IMG/VR virus record: IMGVR_UViG_3300020601_000026
Span: 1 to 39,397 of that record
Source: a virus
Strand: one strand, 5' to 3'
Length of the DNA stretch: 39,397 nucleotides
The notes beneath the pieces are model-generated. The model ran no database searches and was not told where the DNA came from. It worked only from the letters and a program-made list of their open reading frames with translations. How positions within the stretch are numbered: the stretch's first letter is position 1; every line of letters begins with the position of its first letter. A program made the position numbers and the translations under genes. Below are positions 19,458 to 39,397 of the stretch, piece by piece.

Positions 19458-20699
19458 ATGCAGACGTTCAAAACATATATCGCTGAGGCGGCTAAGAACC
19501 TCCATATGACTCACCTTGAGGATCAAGTAATCTATGGTGGAGTGAATGGCGCAAGACAAGCAATCCTTGCTCTTCGTTCTCTTCGTGATATGTTAGCCGG
19601 TGAGGCAAAACGTCCGGTTGATGTAACCGTCAAATGGGACGGAGCACCAGCCATCTTTGCTGGAGTGGATCCAAGGGATGGTAAGTTCTTTGTTGCTAAG
19701 AAAGGCGTGTTCAATAAAAACCCTAAGATCTATAAGACTGATGCCGATATCGATGCGGATACATCCGGTGATCTATCAAATAAGCTAAAGACTTGCCTTA
19801 AGTATATGCCTTCACTTGGTATCAAAGGTGTGGTTCAAGGCGACTTGATGTTTACGTCTGATGATATTGATACCGATACTATTGACGGTACTAAGTACTA
19901 TACCTTTCAGCCAAACACAATCGTATATGCAGTACCCGTTGACTCTGACGGCGCAAAGGAAATCAAAAAGGCTAAGATGGGTATCGTATTTCATACACGA
20001 TACACCGGATCTGACTTTGAGTCAATGAAAGCATCGTTTGATGTTAAGGCTTCTGAGTTTAAGGCAACACCAAATGTTTGGTTCCAAGATGCAACCCTTA
20101 GGGATCTATCAGGTACGGCTACGTTGACTAAGAAGGATACCGACGAGGTAACCAAGGCATTATCCGAAGCGGGTAAGATATTCCGTAAGATTGCTGGATC
20201 AACTCTTCGTGAGATCGAAGGAAATGAAACCTTGGCTCAAACCATTGAGACTTACAATAATACGTTTGTTCGTAAGCAGGAAGTCATCAAGGATACTAGA
20301 AAACATGTTGACGGATTAATCAAATATATATCTGATAAGTATCAAAAAGAAATCGATACCAAAAAGTCAGAGAAGGGTAAGGCAACATGGGAAGGCAAGA
20401 AGGCGGATATCTTAAAGTTCTTTTCTTCCTCAAATAAAGCTAACCTAAAACTACTGTTTGATTTGCAAAAAGCAATCGTTTCTGCGAAACTTATTATTAT
20501 AAATAAACTAAACAGGTTGCAAAAGATGTCAACATTCGTTCGTACTCCAAACGGATTTAAGACGACAGGTGTTGAAGGATACGTTGCAATCGACAAGTTA
20601 AGTGGTGGTGCAGTTAAGTTGGTGGACCGTATGGAGTTCTCCTACAACAACTTTAGCCCTGATATTATTAAAGGCTGGGACAAACCGTCTCGATCCTAA
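19458..20699 (+). CDS. Nucleic-acid-ligase-like protein with capsid-targeting-like N-terminus
   Basis: 413 residues. VTVKWDGAPAIFAG near residues 58-71 contains KWDG, the KxDG lysine motif of ATP-dependent DNA/RNA ligases. FVAKKGVF, GVVQGDLMF and later VEGYVAIDKLSGGAVKLVDR (motifs IV and V, EGxV...KLV) fit the nucleotidyltransferase fold in order. The N-terminus, MQTFKTYIAEA, closely resembles the T4 internal-protein targeting peptide MKTYQEFIAEA, with IAE as a possible gp21 protease cut. I infer a ligase or RNA-processing enzyme packaged in the capsid. It follows the previous late gene by 8 bases. Confidence 0.65.
   Translation: MQTFKTYIAEAAKNLHMTHLEDQVIYGGVNGARQAILALRSLRDMLAGEAKRPVDVTVKWDGAPAIFAGVDPRDGKFFVAKKGVFNKNPKIYKTDADIDADTSGDLSNKLKTCLKYMPSLGIKGVVQGDLMFTSDDIDTDTIDGTKYYTFQPNTIVYAVPVDSDGAKEIKKAKMGIVFHTRYTGSDFESMKASFDVKASEFKATPNVWFQDATLRDLSGTATLTKKDTDEVTKALSEAGKIFRKIAGSTLREIEGNETLAQTIETYNNTFVRKQEVIKDTRKHVDGLIKYISDKYQKEIDTKKSEKGKATWEGKKADILKFFSSSNKANLKLLFDLQKAIVSAKLIIINKLNRLQKMSTFVRTPNGFKTTGVEGYVAIDKLSGGAVKLVDRMEFSYNNFSPDIIKGWDKPSRS
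20498..20505 (+). promoter_or_regulatory. Possible internal late promoter
   Basis: A perfect TATAAATA inside the ligase-like gene, about 210 bases before the next start at 20715. The sequence encodes ordinary residues there, so this may be chance; a weak internal late start remains possible. Confidence 0.25.
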
Positions 20700-20714
20700 T
20701 GGGAATTTGGAAAA

Positions 20715-21116
20715 ATGAAAGACTATAAACAAGTTCAACGAGAGCTTACGGAATTAAATGCAGATGGACATCAAGACTCGACTGACGAGGCCTTGACTGC
20801 TCAACAGCGAATGAAGCTGAAGCAATCCATCCGTCGTAACAAGGCTAAGATTCGCCTTGGACGTGAAAAGGCAAAACGTAAGACCGCGTCTCCAGAGGTA
20901 CTACAAAAGAGAGCTAACAAACAGGCTCGTAACGCTATCCTTAAAAAGATACTAAAGAACAAGGATAAAAGCGACCTCAGTTATTCCCAAAGATCATCCA
21001 TTGAAAAGCAGCTCGATAAAAAGAAGTCTGCTATCAAGCGTATCGCTAAACAACTCCTTCCAAAAATTCGTAAGGCCGACCGTGCTAAGTTAAGCGGCGG
21101 TAAGAAGGAGAAGTAA
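20715..21116 (+). CDS. Small highly basic protein
   Basis: 133 residues, dominated by Lys and Arg (RRNKAKIRLGREKAKRK, KKIAKQLLPKIRKADRAK), helical, without a membrane segment. The mix of basic helical repeats matches a group of short basic proteins found beside structural genes in marine T4-like phages. Such a protein could bind DNA or RNA or form part of the prohead core. It begins 13 bases after the ligase-like gene, and its stop overlaps the next ATG (TAATG). Confidence 0.7.
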   Translation: MKDYKQVQRELTELNADGHQDSTDEALTAQQRMKLKQSIRRNKAKIRLGREKAKRKTASPEVLQKRANKQARNAILKKILKNKDKSDLSYSQRSSIEKQLDKKKSAIKRIAKQLLPKIRKADRAKLSGGKKEK

Positions 21117-22555
21117 TGTCTTTTAAGAGTTTTGCTGAATACGTTACCGAAGAGACGAAAGAAGTCGTCGTTGCATGGGGTCGATATAATCCCCCTACGA
21201 TTGGTCATGAGAAGCTTATGACTGTTGTTAAAAAGGTTGCGGGTAGCGGTCAGTACAGAATCTATGCATCTCAATCGCAGGATCCCAAAGAGAATCCTAT
21301 TGAGTATAAAACCAAAGTAAAATATATGCGCAAGATGTTTCCAAAACATGCGCGCAGCATTATGCTTGAACCAAAGATCCGTACAATGTTTGATCTGATG
21401 ACCAAACTATACGACGAAGGATTTACTAAGGTAACCCTCGTTGCTGGTTCTGACAGAGTTCCTGAGTATGATGTAACACTAAATAAGTATAACGGTGTAA
21501 AGGGTCGCCACGGTTTCTATAACTTTGAGGGTGGCGTTAACATCGTATCGGCAGGACAGCGAGATCCTGACGCAAAGGGCGCAGCGGGTATGTCTGCATC
21601 TAAGCTCAGAGCTGCGGCCGAAAATAACGATTTCAAAACATTCAGTAAAGGTATGCCTGCTGGGTTCAAAGAAACCCAACAGTTGTTCAATGATGTTCGC
21701 AAAGGTATGGGTCTGAAGGAATCATATGACTTTAGATCTCACTTGCAGTTACAGTCAGTGTCGGAGGAAAGGGAAGCCTACGTTTCTGGAGATCTATATA
21801 AAGAAGGTGATCTTATTGTCGTAAAGGAAGACGACGAGGTTGGTGAGATCATTATGCTAGGATCTAATTACGTATTGGTCGAAATGGCTAGTGGTAAAAA
21901 GGTACGTAAATGGTTAACCGACATTGAGTTGGTTGAGAAACTAAAACCACAAGATCCTGATGCTGATGAAGTTCCAGGGTCTCAACCTAAAGGTTACTAC
22001 AAAGGTGTTGATAAGGATAAGAAAGTCGCACGGGCTAAGCACTTCCAACGAGGCGCTAAGAGTGACGATGATGATCCTGCTTCTTATAAGCCTGCTCCAG
22101 GAGATGCCGAGGCCAAGACTAAGCCATCCAAATTTACTAAAAAGTTCAAAAGAATGTATGGTGAGCAGGACGCAACTGACAAGGCCAAGGAACGTATTGA
22201 TAGAGAAAAAGAATCTGATAAGATTAAGCATGACCGTATGATGGATCGTGCAAGGCTCAGAGATACCAAAGCAAAAAATCAAGAGGAAGATGTGAAATCA
22301 TTTAGTTCATTTGCTGGTATCATGACCGAGGATACTACTGCAGCACTTAAGAAGAAAGCTGATAAATCAGGCATGCCAGTAGGGATCCTAAGAAAAGTTT
22401 ATAACCGTGGCGTAGCCGCTTGGAGAACAGGACATCGTCCTGGTACTACTCCTGCACAGTGGGGTATGGCTCGCGTCAATTCATTCGTAACTAAATCGTC
22501 AGGAACTTGGGGCAAGGCTGATTCCGATCTTGCTTCTAAAGTAAGGGGAAAATAA
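21116..22555 (+). CDS. Cytidylyltransferase-fold protein with DUF5824-like tail
   Basis: 479 residues, modular. Residues 15-200: nucleotidyltransferase of the HIGH-type superfamily, with WGRYNPPTIGHEKLM (GRFxPxxxGH) and GMSASKLRAAA (the ISSTxxR-like motif). Around 215-280 (VSGDLYKEGDLIVV, VLVEMASGKKVRKWL) an SH3/KOW-like domain follows. A charged linker leads to a tail from about 395: KKADKSGMPVGILRKVYN, RGVAAWRTGHRPGTTPAQWG, ARVNSF, matching DUF5824. The protein begins MSFKSFAEYVTEE, like a capsid-targeting peptide, and a second such motif (VKSFSSFAGIMTED) stands just before the tail. The substrate is unknown. Confidence 0.85.
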   Translation: MSFKSFAEYVTEETKEVVVAWGRYNPPTIGHEKLMTVVKKVAGSGQYRIYASQSQDPKENPIEYKTKVKYMRKMFPKHARSIMLEPKIRTMFDLMTKLYDEGFTKVTLVAGSDRVPEYDVTLNKYNGVKGRHGFYNFEGGVNIVSAGQRDPDAKGAAGMSASKLRAAAENNDFKTFSKGMPAGFKETQQLFNDVRKGMGLKESYDFRSHLQLQSVSEEREAYVSGDLYKEGDLIVVKEDDEVGEIIMLGSNYVLVEMASGKKVRKWLTDIELVEKLKPQDPDADEVPGSQPKGYYKGVDKDKKVARAKHFQRGAKSDDDDPASYKPAPGDAEAKTKPSKFTKKFKRMYGEQDATDKAKERIDREKESDKIKHDRMMDRARLRDTKAKNQEEDVKSFSSFAGIMTEDTTAALKKKADKSGMPVGILRKVYNRGVAAWRTGHRPGTTPAQWGMARVNSFVTKSSGTWGKADSDLASKVRGK

Positions 22556-37850: not shown

Positions 37851-38434
37851 ACATGTATAAAAAAGATAAATTAATTTTAGTTGATTGTGATGGAGTCTTG
37901 GTCGATTGGGCCTACTCCTTCGACTGTTGGATGGAGGCTCGTGGTTACGAGCTTACCGATGAACATCATTACGATGTAGCAAAAAGGTATGGTATACCAA
38001 GACATGTTACCAAATCACTGGTTCGTGACTTTAACGAATCTGCTGCGATTGGTTTCTTACCTCCTCTAAGAGATGCGGTATACTACATCAAGAAGCTGCA
38101 TAAGGAACACGGGTTTGTGTTCCACTGCATTACGAGTCTAAGCCTAGACAAGTATGCAGGTAAGCTTCGTAAGCGTAACCTAGAAATGCTCTTTGGTGAA
38201 ACTGTCTTTGACGAAGTAATCTGTTTGGATTGCGGAGCAGACAAGGAAGATGCATTACGTAAGTATGCTGATACCGAGTGTTACTGGGTAGAGGATAAAG
38301 TCGAAAACGCTGAGGAAGGTCTTCTTCATGGTCTTGACTCAATCCTAGTTGCTCACGATCATAACGCTAACTATGAGGGAGAGATCCCAAGATACTGGAA
38401 GTGGAAACATATTTATGAATACATCACTAGTTAA
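37847..38434 (+). CDS. HAD-superfamily 5'-nucleotidase-like protein
   Basis: 195 residues. DCDGVLVDW near residues 13-21 is HAD motif I (DxDG). CITSLSLDKYAGKLRKRNLEML supplies motif II and the conserved basic residue, and VEDKVENAEEG the acidic motif IV. The cap region (DVAKRYGIPRHVTKSLVRDFNE) fits NT5C-type deoxynucleotidases. Phage relatives may hydrolyse dNMPs. The start at 37847 overlaps the previous stop by one codon; ATG 37853 also fits. It overlaps the next gene by 20 bases. Confidence 0.82.
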   Translation: MNMYKKDKLILVDCDGVLVDWAYSFDCWMEARGYELTDEHHYDVAKRYGIPRHVTKSLVRDFNESAAIGFLPPLRDAVYYIKKLHKEHGFVFHCITSLSLDKYAGKLRKRNLEMLFGETVFDEVICLDCGADKEDALRKYADTECYWVEDKVENAEEGLLHGLDSILVAHDHNANYEGEIPRYWKWKHIYEYITS

Positions 38435-38924
38435 AGCGGGGCTAGTCGCCGCATTCGTTATTGGCTGTGCACCTGCACATGCTGATACAGTTTACCTCAC
38501 AGGTACGGTCGTAGACGTAGACCCTACCTATACACAGCAGCGAGTCCAAACGCCGTATCGTGCTTGTGAGGTAAACCAAGTACCAATCTATGGTCAAGGA
38601 AACATGAACCAAGACGGTGCCATCCTTGGTGGTATCATCGGAGGTATCCTTGGTAACCAAGTTGGGAAAGGATCTGGCAAGGAAGTTGCCACTGGAGTAG
38701 GAGCACTAACCGGAGCTATCATTGGCGGTAAAGGCAATCAAAAGATTATCGGTTACCAAAATGTTGAGCAGTGTAGTGTTCAGTACGAAACATCAATCAA
38801 GGACGTATTTGTATCAAACACTGTTACCGTAAGGGTAGGTGAAGAAAACTTGACGTTCTATAGCAAACGCCAATACGATGTCGGTCAGACCGCTCGTATT
38901 AAAATCAATAGAACTTTGGATTAA
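38415..38924 (+). CDS. Secreted glycine-zipper protein
   Basis: 169 residues. A signal peptide (MNTSLVKAGLVAAFVIGCAPAHA, cut after AHA) is followed by a glycine-zipper two-helix segment (GAILGGIIGGILGNQVGKG, then GVGALTGAIIGGKG), as in the Rick_17kDa/SlyB-like outer-membrane proteins. The C-terminal half is beta-rich (SVQYETSIKDVFVSNTVTVRVG). It could insert in the host outer membrane or alter superinfection. The start overlaps the HAD gene by 20 bases. A phage-borne secreted protein of this type is uncommon. Confidence 0.78.
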   Translation: MNTSLVKAGLVAAFVIGCAPAHADTVYLTGTVVDVDPTYTQQRVQTPYRACEVNQVPIYGQGNMNQDGAILGGIIGGILGNQVGKGSGKEVATGVGALTGAIIGGKGNQKIIGYQNVEQCSVQYETSIKDVFVSNTVTVRVGEENLTFYSKRQYDVGQTARIKINRTLD

Positions 38925-38933
38925 GAGGTAAAA

Positions 38934-39131
38934 ATGAGAGAACATTTAATTAAAGCCCTGAAGGCTCACGCGCATGGTCACATTCAAAAGCATGTGGCTA
39001 ACGTTGAGATCTATCTTGAGCGAGCACAAGGAATTGCTGAACATCCAGACGTGGTCGACTCAATAGAAAAAGAACTTGCTGAAATCGCAGTATACGATGA
39101 TCAACTATCAATGCTTGAGAAGTATTTCTAA
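38934..39131 (+). CDS. Conserved small protein of marine T4-like phages
   Basis: 65 residues. MREHLIKALKAHAHGHIQKHVANVEIYLERAQGIAEHPDVVDSIEKELAEI followed by YDDQLSMLEKYF is a family I associate with marine T4-like phages. It is helical and His-rich in the first third. AAGAGG stands 5-6 bases before the ATG. The stop overlaps the next ATG (TAATG). Confidence 0.75.
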   Translation: MREHLIKALKAHAHGHIQKHVANVEIYLERAQGIAEHPDVVDSIEKELAEIAVYDDQLSMLEKYF

Positions 39132-39397
39132 TGTATAGACCTCTTCCTAGCTGCGTAACTATTCGTAACTCAGATATTGAGGGTCTAGGATTATTTGCTA
39201 TTGAAGAAATAAAAAATGGCACTGAGATCGGAATGTCTCATTTCTACTGGGGTGAACAACTTTGCCGAACGCCACTCGGTGCCTTTTATAACCATTCGAC
39301 TGAACCAAACATTGAGAAGGTTCGTCGAGACAGCAGATACTTTATTACAGCCACAAGAGACATTGGTGCTGGTGAGGAACTTACATGCTTATATACT
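39131..39397 (+). CDS. SET-domain protein (3' end missing)
   Basis: At least 89 residues; the frame is open at the window end. VTIRNSDIEGLGLFAIEEIKNG is the N-terminal SET fold, GAFYNHSTEPNIEK the NHS cofactor-pseudoknot motif, and ATRDIGAGEELTCLY the conserved GEELTxxY end. SET proteins methylate lysines in eukaryotes and some bacteria and large phages. The protein target here is unknown. It begins on the previous stop codon (TAATG) in the same transcript. Confidence 0.8.
   Translation, partial: MYRPLPSCVTIRNSDIEGLGLFAIEEIKNGTEIGMSHFYWGEQLCRTPLGAFYNHSTEPNIEKVRRDSRYFITATRDIGAGEELTCLYT

Follow-up and report, generated by a model that had tools for sequence, protein, structure and literature searches.

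The window, a virus contig of 39,397 nucleotides (IMG/VR record IMGVR_UViG_3300020601_000026, positions 1 to 39,397), ends within a gene for a small SET-domain protein, which belongs to a phage family marked by the signatures YxPLP and RTPLG. Because the motifs, the predicted fold and the selection on relatives favour it, we infer, with slightly better than even confidence, that the family is an active SAM-dependent methyltransferase of a minimal, stand-alone SET type, most likely acting on protein lysine as part of host takeover. The following features were located at the end of the window.

38934 to 39131, plus strand: upstream 65-amino-acid gene matching phrog_1811 (unknown function)
39131 to 39397, plus strand: SET-domain protein, 89 amino acids seen and cut by the contig end (97 amino acids in the relative L002)
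39134 to 39148, plus strand: YRPLP, the family-specific N-terminal signature, residues 2-6
39182 to 39190, plus strand: GLG, the GxG SAM-binding motif, residues 18-20
39266 to 39280, plus strand: RTPLG, the family-specific signature before the knot, residues 46-50
39290 to 39298, plus strand: NHS motif, residues 54-56
39371 to 39394, plus strand: GEELTCLY with the putative catalytic tyrosine Y88, residues 81-88

The SET reading frame starts with ATG and stays open to the contig end without a stop codon. Its 89-residue product matched the Pfam SET domain PF00856 (E 3.2e-12, 47.2 bits against a cut-off of 22.4 bits), with the best stretch at residues 49-88, and 34 of 34 aligned relatives also matched PF00856 (E up to 0.1); at the sequence level, the matches of the window protein and its relatives are far above chance. 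A nearly full-length match was obtained with phrog_28741 (E 1.4e-17; window residues 1-89 on profile positions 2-94 of 100), which is the same family in PHROG, carried there without a name, and no difference was seen. The stop codon of the 65-amino-acid gene and the SET start codon overlap by one base, so the two genes are likely to be co-transcribed. The gene at 38415-38921 of the window encodes a protein whose glycine-zipper 2TM domain resembles that of the Rickettsia 17-kDa antigen (PF05433, E 1.2e-6) and whose N-terminus was read as signal-like.

The 3' end, which the earlier note had named as missing, was supplied by the relative L002. This contig is 99.92% identical to the window across 7,618 overlapping bases and identical within the 267 bases of the SET reading frame, and its SET gene continues for 8 residues beyond the window end before a stop codon, giving a total of 97 amino acids. 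The reading frame is complete in L002-L006. A truncated domain without the SAM-binding residues, the outcome that the earlier note held against its own proposal, was ruled out, as GLG (residues 18-20), N54, H55 and Y88 are present and the L002 gene is complete. It is the contig edge alone that cuts the window copy.

To assess conservation, crude ORF calls from the window and 140 viral loci (141 sources, some contigs being present twice) were clustered, and the SET cluster comprised 127 ORFs, of which 93, including that of the window, were distinct. In 14 of the 141 sources, including L002-L006, ORF calling did not recover the SET gene, and these sources are therefore absent from the conservation, tail and neighbour counts; the motifs were seen separately in L002-L006, L028, L029, L048, L050, L051 and L059. 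NHS and GEELTCLY lay where the earlier note had placed them. The GxG, NHS and GEELxxxY motifs were all present, in the order of the SET superfamily, and the roles of the GLG, NHS, E83 and Y88 positions are presumed from other SET enzymes. GLG of the window aligned with IHGRGLF of MLL, and G18 and G20 were found in 89/92 and 92/92 distinct viral sequences, respectively. N54 was kept in 93/93 and H55 in 92/93, with S56 in just 72/93, and both E83 and Y88 were present in all 91 distinct sequences reaching those positions. Consistent with these counts, G18, G20, N54, H55, E83 and Y88 were invariant in a 34-member alignment that included L002, L004, L028, L048 and L050. When the family profile was compared with the MLL SET domain, GLG fell on GxG, AFYNHSTEPN on the NHS motif and GEELTCLY on GEELTYDY.

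The positions peculiar to the YxPLP/RTPLG family were Y2, L5, P6, H37 and RTPLG (46-50). In YRPLP, Y2 and L5 were found in 92/92 and P6 in 91/92 distinct viral sequences, with A in place of P4 in some; in RTPLG, the counts were R 93/93, T 91/93, P 93/93, L 92/93 and G 93/93, an invariance that is partly ascertainment because the search patterns contained RTPLG or its neighbours. The otherwise invariant H37 was replaced by W in 2 of the 93 sequences (L177 4420-4722 and L195 818-1114), a natural variant of the site.

The L002 protein, modelled by AlphaFold2 with 35 relatives, gave a pLDDT of 89.6 and a pTM of 0.79, with residues 94-97 below 50. The best PDB matches of this model in Foldseek were MLL4 (E 3.9e-6) and vSET 3kma (E 4.8e-6, TMq 0.74), and VIA-align gave a Z of 12.2 for its superposition on vSET 3kma (85 residues at 2.2 A), a score that MLL1 and MLL3 equalled. 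From this homolog model and its Foldseek and VIA matches, a SET fold is predicted for the phage family. Predicted viral structures matching the model included SET proteins from giant viruses and uncultured Caudovirales.

Most of the distinct viral sequences were short, with 75 of 93 at 93-100 amino acids and 14 at 101-126; the four shorter ones (64-89 amino acids) were the window and other cut copies. The tail after Y88 had a median of 6 residues in 91 sequences, the window's own tail being cut. A cysteine post-SET was looked for after Y88, and two or more cysteines were found in 0 of 91 tails and a single one in 3. As the tails are short and without a cysteine cluster, an MLL-type closed lysine channel would not be available in a monomer. 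By length and composition, the family fits a vSET-like minimal class, i.e., a stand-alone viral SET of about 100-120 amino acids without post-SET. The whole phage protein has about 95 residues, which suggests a short SET-I. An ordinary second SET gene with a CxC..C tail was observed in a SAR11 genome (L225 1459-1935), directly downstream of a 309-amino-acid gene read as deacetylase-like.

Selection was estimated as dN/dS for 13 genes (78 possible pairs, 30 listed). The seven listed pairs with finite dS above 0.3, among L018, L020, L025, L028 and L037, gave dN/dS values of 0.03-0.14, and these measurable pairs show, as judged from their codons, purifying selection on the SET relatives. Between the window and distant relatives the synonymous sites were saturated, with dN of 0.18-0.29. 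The near-identical pairs window-L004 and L008-L009 (dN/dS 0.27-0.28) carry little weight, with one synonymous and one non-synonymous change each. The proposal of the earlier note that a phage encodes a SET-domain protein is thus borne out by family profiles, the predicted structure, the conservation of the motif residues and the purifying selection.

A tblastn search of the 89 residues against 50,697 phage records returned six records representing four distinct phages, namely pelagiphage Kolga, cyanophages P-SSM7 and P-RSM6, and virus AG-345-P14, all with full-length versions at 39.8-45.2% identity. In the three annotated phages, the homologs are annotated as hypothetical proteins. In IMG/VR, a search with the single window protein yielded 71 loci, and a profile search confirmed at least 579 of 600 stretches, of which the best 80 were retained. 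The DNA polymerase of the window was 60.5% identical to that of phage C48C1 (Kyanoviridae), and the other phages among the best 12 of 2,590 records, all cyanophages, showed 50.7-52.2% identity. The window also encodes both ribonucleotide reductase subunits, thymidylate synthase and PhoH, and by its gene content looks T4-like; the T4-type prohead protease PF03420 was found in 1 of 7 records. The carriers of the SET family are tailed phages, marine T4-like ones among them. Elsewhere in the window, two genes at 19458-22555 matched phrog_455 (E 5.1e-102) and the cytidyltransferase phrog_3041 (E 2.4e-97).

Among crude ORFs of the 141 viral sources, the commonest neighbour of SET was family C3, which occupied the second position upstream in 23 places, and a protein weakly matching C93 peptidases (E 0.00067, below cut-off) lay directly upstream in 21. 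Directly downstream, a 62-amino-acid protein of unknown function was found in 17 places and a class-3 lipase in 15. No convincing candidate for a substrate gene linked to the viral SET was found among these commonest neighbours.

The YxPLP/RTPLG signature is common to the viral family and to cellular relatives. When genome contigs were scanned with the profile, 340 candidate stretches were obtained, of which 206 were confirmed and the best 80 retained; 61 of these 80 were SAR11-type, defined as a match to the L148 protein of at least 45% identity and at least 100 amino acids. The SAR11-type homologs have about 123-146 amino acids and, in the alignment, carry an insert absent from the viral versions. 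The model of a SAR11-type protein was poorer (pLDDT 74.6), with vSET as the first VIA match (Z 10.6, tied with MLL1).

Genes of small-molecule catabolism adjoined the SET homolog in 61 of the 61 SAR11-type loci retained (e.g., L148 6886-8441 and L101 8001-9681, with 59 further loci). In 31 of them, an alanine dehydrogenase gene (TIGR00518, over cut-off) ended directly upstream of SET; an omega-aminotransferase gene preceded it in 27 of these 31, the remaining 4 loci starting in or just before the alanine dehydrogenase gene, and both sulfonate/taurine transporter genes were present in 24 of 31. In the other 30 loci, which are betaine/DMSP-like, the gene upstream of SET encoded a Rieske oxygenase in 18, a class-I methyltransferase in 11 and a dimethylglycine-dehydrogenase-like protein in 1, and an M24-family gene lay directly downstream of SET in 30/30. 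A homocysteine-methyltransferase-like gene was found upstream in 21/30 of these loci and a dimethylglycine-dehydrogenase-like gene in 26/30; the full-length locus L096 had neither upstream on the same strand.

NCBIfam cut-offs were exceeded by alanine dehydrogenase, AptA-type omega-aminotransferase, ArgC and ProC. The transporter protein (SsuA/TauA), the BHMT-/homocysteine-methyltransferase-like protein, the dehydrogenases and ArgD remained under them, and the best NCBIfam match of the M24 gene was the DMSP lyase DddP, with 352 bits against a cut-off of 600. The names Rieske, DAO and methyltransferase in the SAR11 loci are Pfam matches. The SAR11 aminotransferase was also considered as taurine:pyruvate aminotransferase, an identity that was rejected, NCBIfam giving omega-aminotransferase AptA over cut-off. 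The labels 'taurine' and 'betaine/DMSP' are likely to denote the pathways of the SET neighbours, names that are not firm because several of the gene names lie under NCBIfam cut-offs.

The remaining 19 of the best 80 cellular matches came from other bacteria or phage-like contigs. Three Pelagibacter-titled contigs, L077, L082 and L086, lay outside the SAR11-type count. They probably represent phage contigs within single-cell or MAG assemblies, since the tree placed L077 and L082 with phage genes and L086 encodes a protein nearly identical to that of pelagiphage Kolga. L103 and L131, both from bins, also resemble phage contigs. In a Formosa MAG (L085 4659-4952), the SET homolog lay between argC and proC-argD in an arginine-biosynthesis cluster, and in Porticoccaceae (L088, L124 and L113) it followed a gene read as fabB. 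In a tree of 65 chosen sequences and 95 columns, the 10 SAR11 sequences formed one group (99/96), and the smallest well-supported groups around the window consisted of IMG/VR sequences alone. The deep forks of this tree were without resolution, and it gave no support for a SAR11 origin of the phage genes.

Among known systems, the family was compared with vSET (A612L) of PBCV-1, a histone H3K27 methyltransferase (PDB 3kma and 1n3j). Both are small stand-alone viral SET proteins, and the structural match given above is accompanied by a profile match (E 3.3e-7). They differ in length, the PDB chain having 119 amino acids against 97 in L002, with 26% identity in the structural alignment. Bacterial hosts would have no H3. 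The phages carrying the family are expected to infect bacteria, whereas the substrate of vSET is a eukaryotic histone (PMC3089700). The SET domains of MLL/COMPASS (KMT2) were the best sequence-profile matches to the family and tied structurally with vSET; unlike them, the phage family is without a cysteine post-SET. Two proteins of uncultured Caudovirales, named 'SET domain containing protein' in UniProt, matched the L002 model in structure and are longer than the 97-amino-acid L002 protein (A0A6J5PTS6, 263 amino acids; A0A6J5L8Y2, 128 amino acids). As phage SET proteins are named in databases, this kind of protein is already known. In the open-access literature, the range of our search as distinct from subscription journals, no study of the minimal YxPLP/RTPLG SET family or its SAR11 setting was found, and the terms 'SET domain' and 'nuclear protein' occurred 0 times in the main text of PMC5069961 and PMC3160333.

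A further comparison is offered by BurB, a small bacterial SET-domain methyltransferase like the phage protein, which is described in PMC12542666 as a methionine S-methyltransferase of 172 amino acids, tetrameric and acting on free methionine. No sequence link between BurB and the phage family was found among the best 60 matches listed. The SAR11 profile (E up to 10) matched 33 PDB sequences, which did not include the BurB structures 9L4T and 9L4V; nor did these appear among the 50 matches listed for each VIA search with the L002 and SAR11 models, in libraries that may lack both entries.

BurB bears on the unlikely alternative that these proteins methylate small molecules or metabolic enzymes of amino-acid, sulfur or osmolyte metabolism, the phage copies being auxiliary metabolic genes. 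A metabolic role is possible because of the SAR11 catabolic setting and BurB: SAR11-type SET lies beside alanine dehydrogenase (31/61) or an M24/DddP-like gene (30/61), with the homocysteine-methyltransferase-like gene upstream in 21 of the 30 M24-type loci, the Formosa homolog sits between argC and proC, and at least one SET enzyme, BurB, methylates free methionine (PMC12542666). This setting of the SAR11-type relatives does not point to protein targets. However, the genes most often found next to the viral copies are of other kinds, the SAR11 versions carry an insert that the aligned viral ones lack, the BurB structures were missing from the PDB matches noted above, and several operon genes were named from matches under curated cut-offs. 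The NCBIfam comparison weakened the taurine label yet added a DddP-like neighbour, and as these pull in opposite directions our estimate was left unchanged. The more specific proposal, distinctly unlikely in our judgement, is that the family is metabolic and not of the chromatin type, serving in SAR11 the breakdown of compounds such as taurine, glycine betaine or DMSP. Its substrate there would be a pathway enzyme, an amino acid or a compound of sulfur, and the trimmed phage copies would redirect the methyl or osmolyte economy of the infected host.

It is quite improbable that the protein is a SET-fold SAM binder without methyl transfer, acting for example in SAM sequestration or as a regulator. 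The median tail of 6 residues after Y88 would make closure of a monomer over its substrate doubtful, which suits such a role, but the putative catalytic Y88 is retained in 91/91 sequences and is not obviously needed for SAM binding alone. The probability of a decaying or chance ORF at the contig end is negligible: the frame is incomplete within the window, but this explanation was refuted by the full-length relatives, with a complete gene in L002-L006, purifying selection on relatives and at least 579 matches in viral contigs.

We therefore return to the SAM-dependent methyltransferase as the preferred explanation. Protein lysine is the usual substrate of SET enzymes and for that reason the first choice, and methylation of lysines in host or virion proteins by the phage protein, as the earlier note suggested, is plausible by analogy. 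The protein would be produced during infection and would bind SAM in a pocket formed by GLG and NHS. A lysine beside Y88 would accept the methyl group; the protein carrying that lysine would most likely belong to the host or the phage, and its modification would serve host takeover. Without a post-SET, its active site may be completed by a dimer or a partner; completion by a dimer is presumed by analogy with vSET.

Most of what is known about SET enzymes concerns eukaryotic chromatin. If the proposed activity is true, the YxPLP/RTPLG SET family would be a new phage route to modify host proteins or metabolites, and it would offer a small, tractable case for studying the function of a SET domain that has no post-SET.
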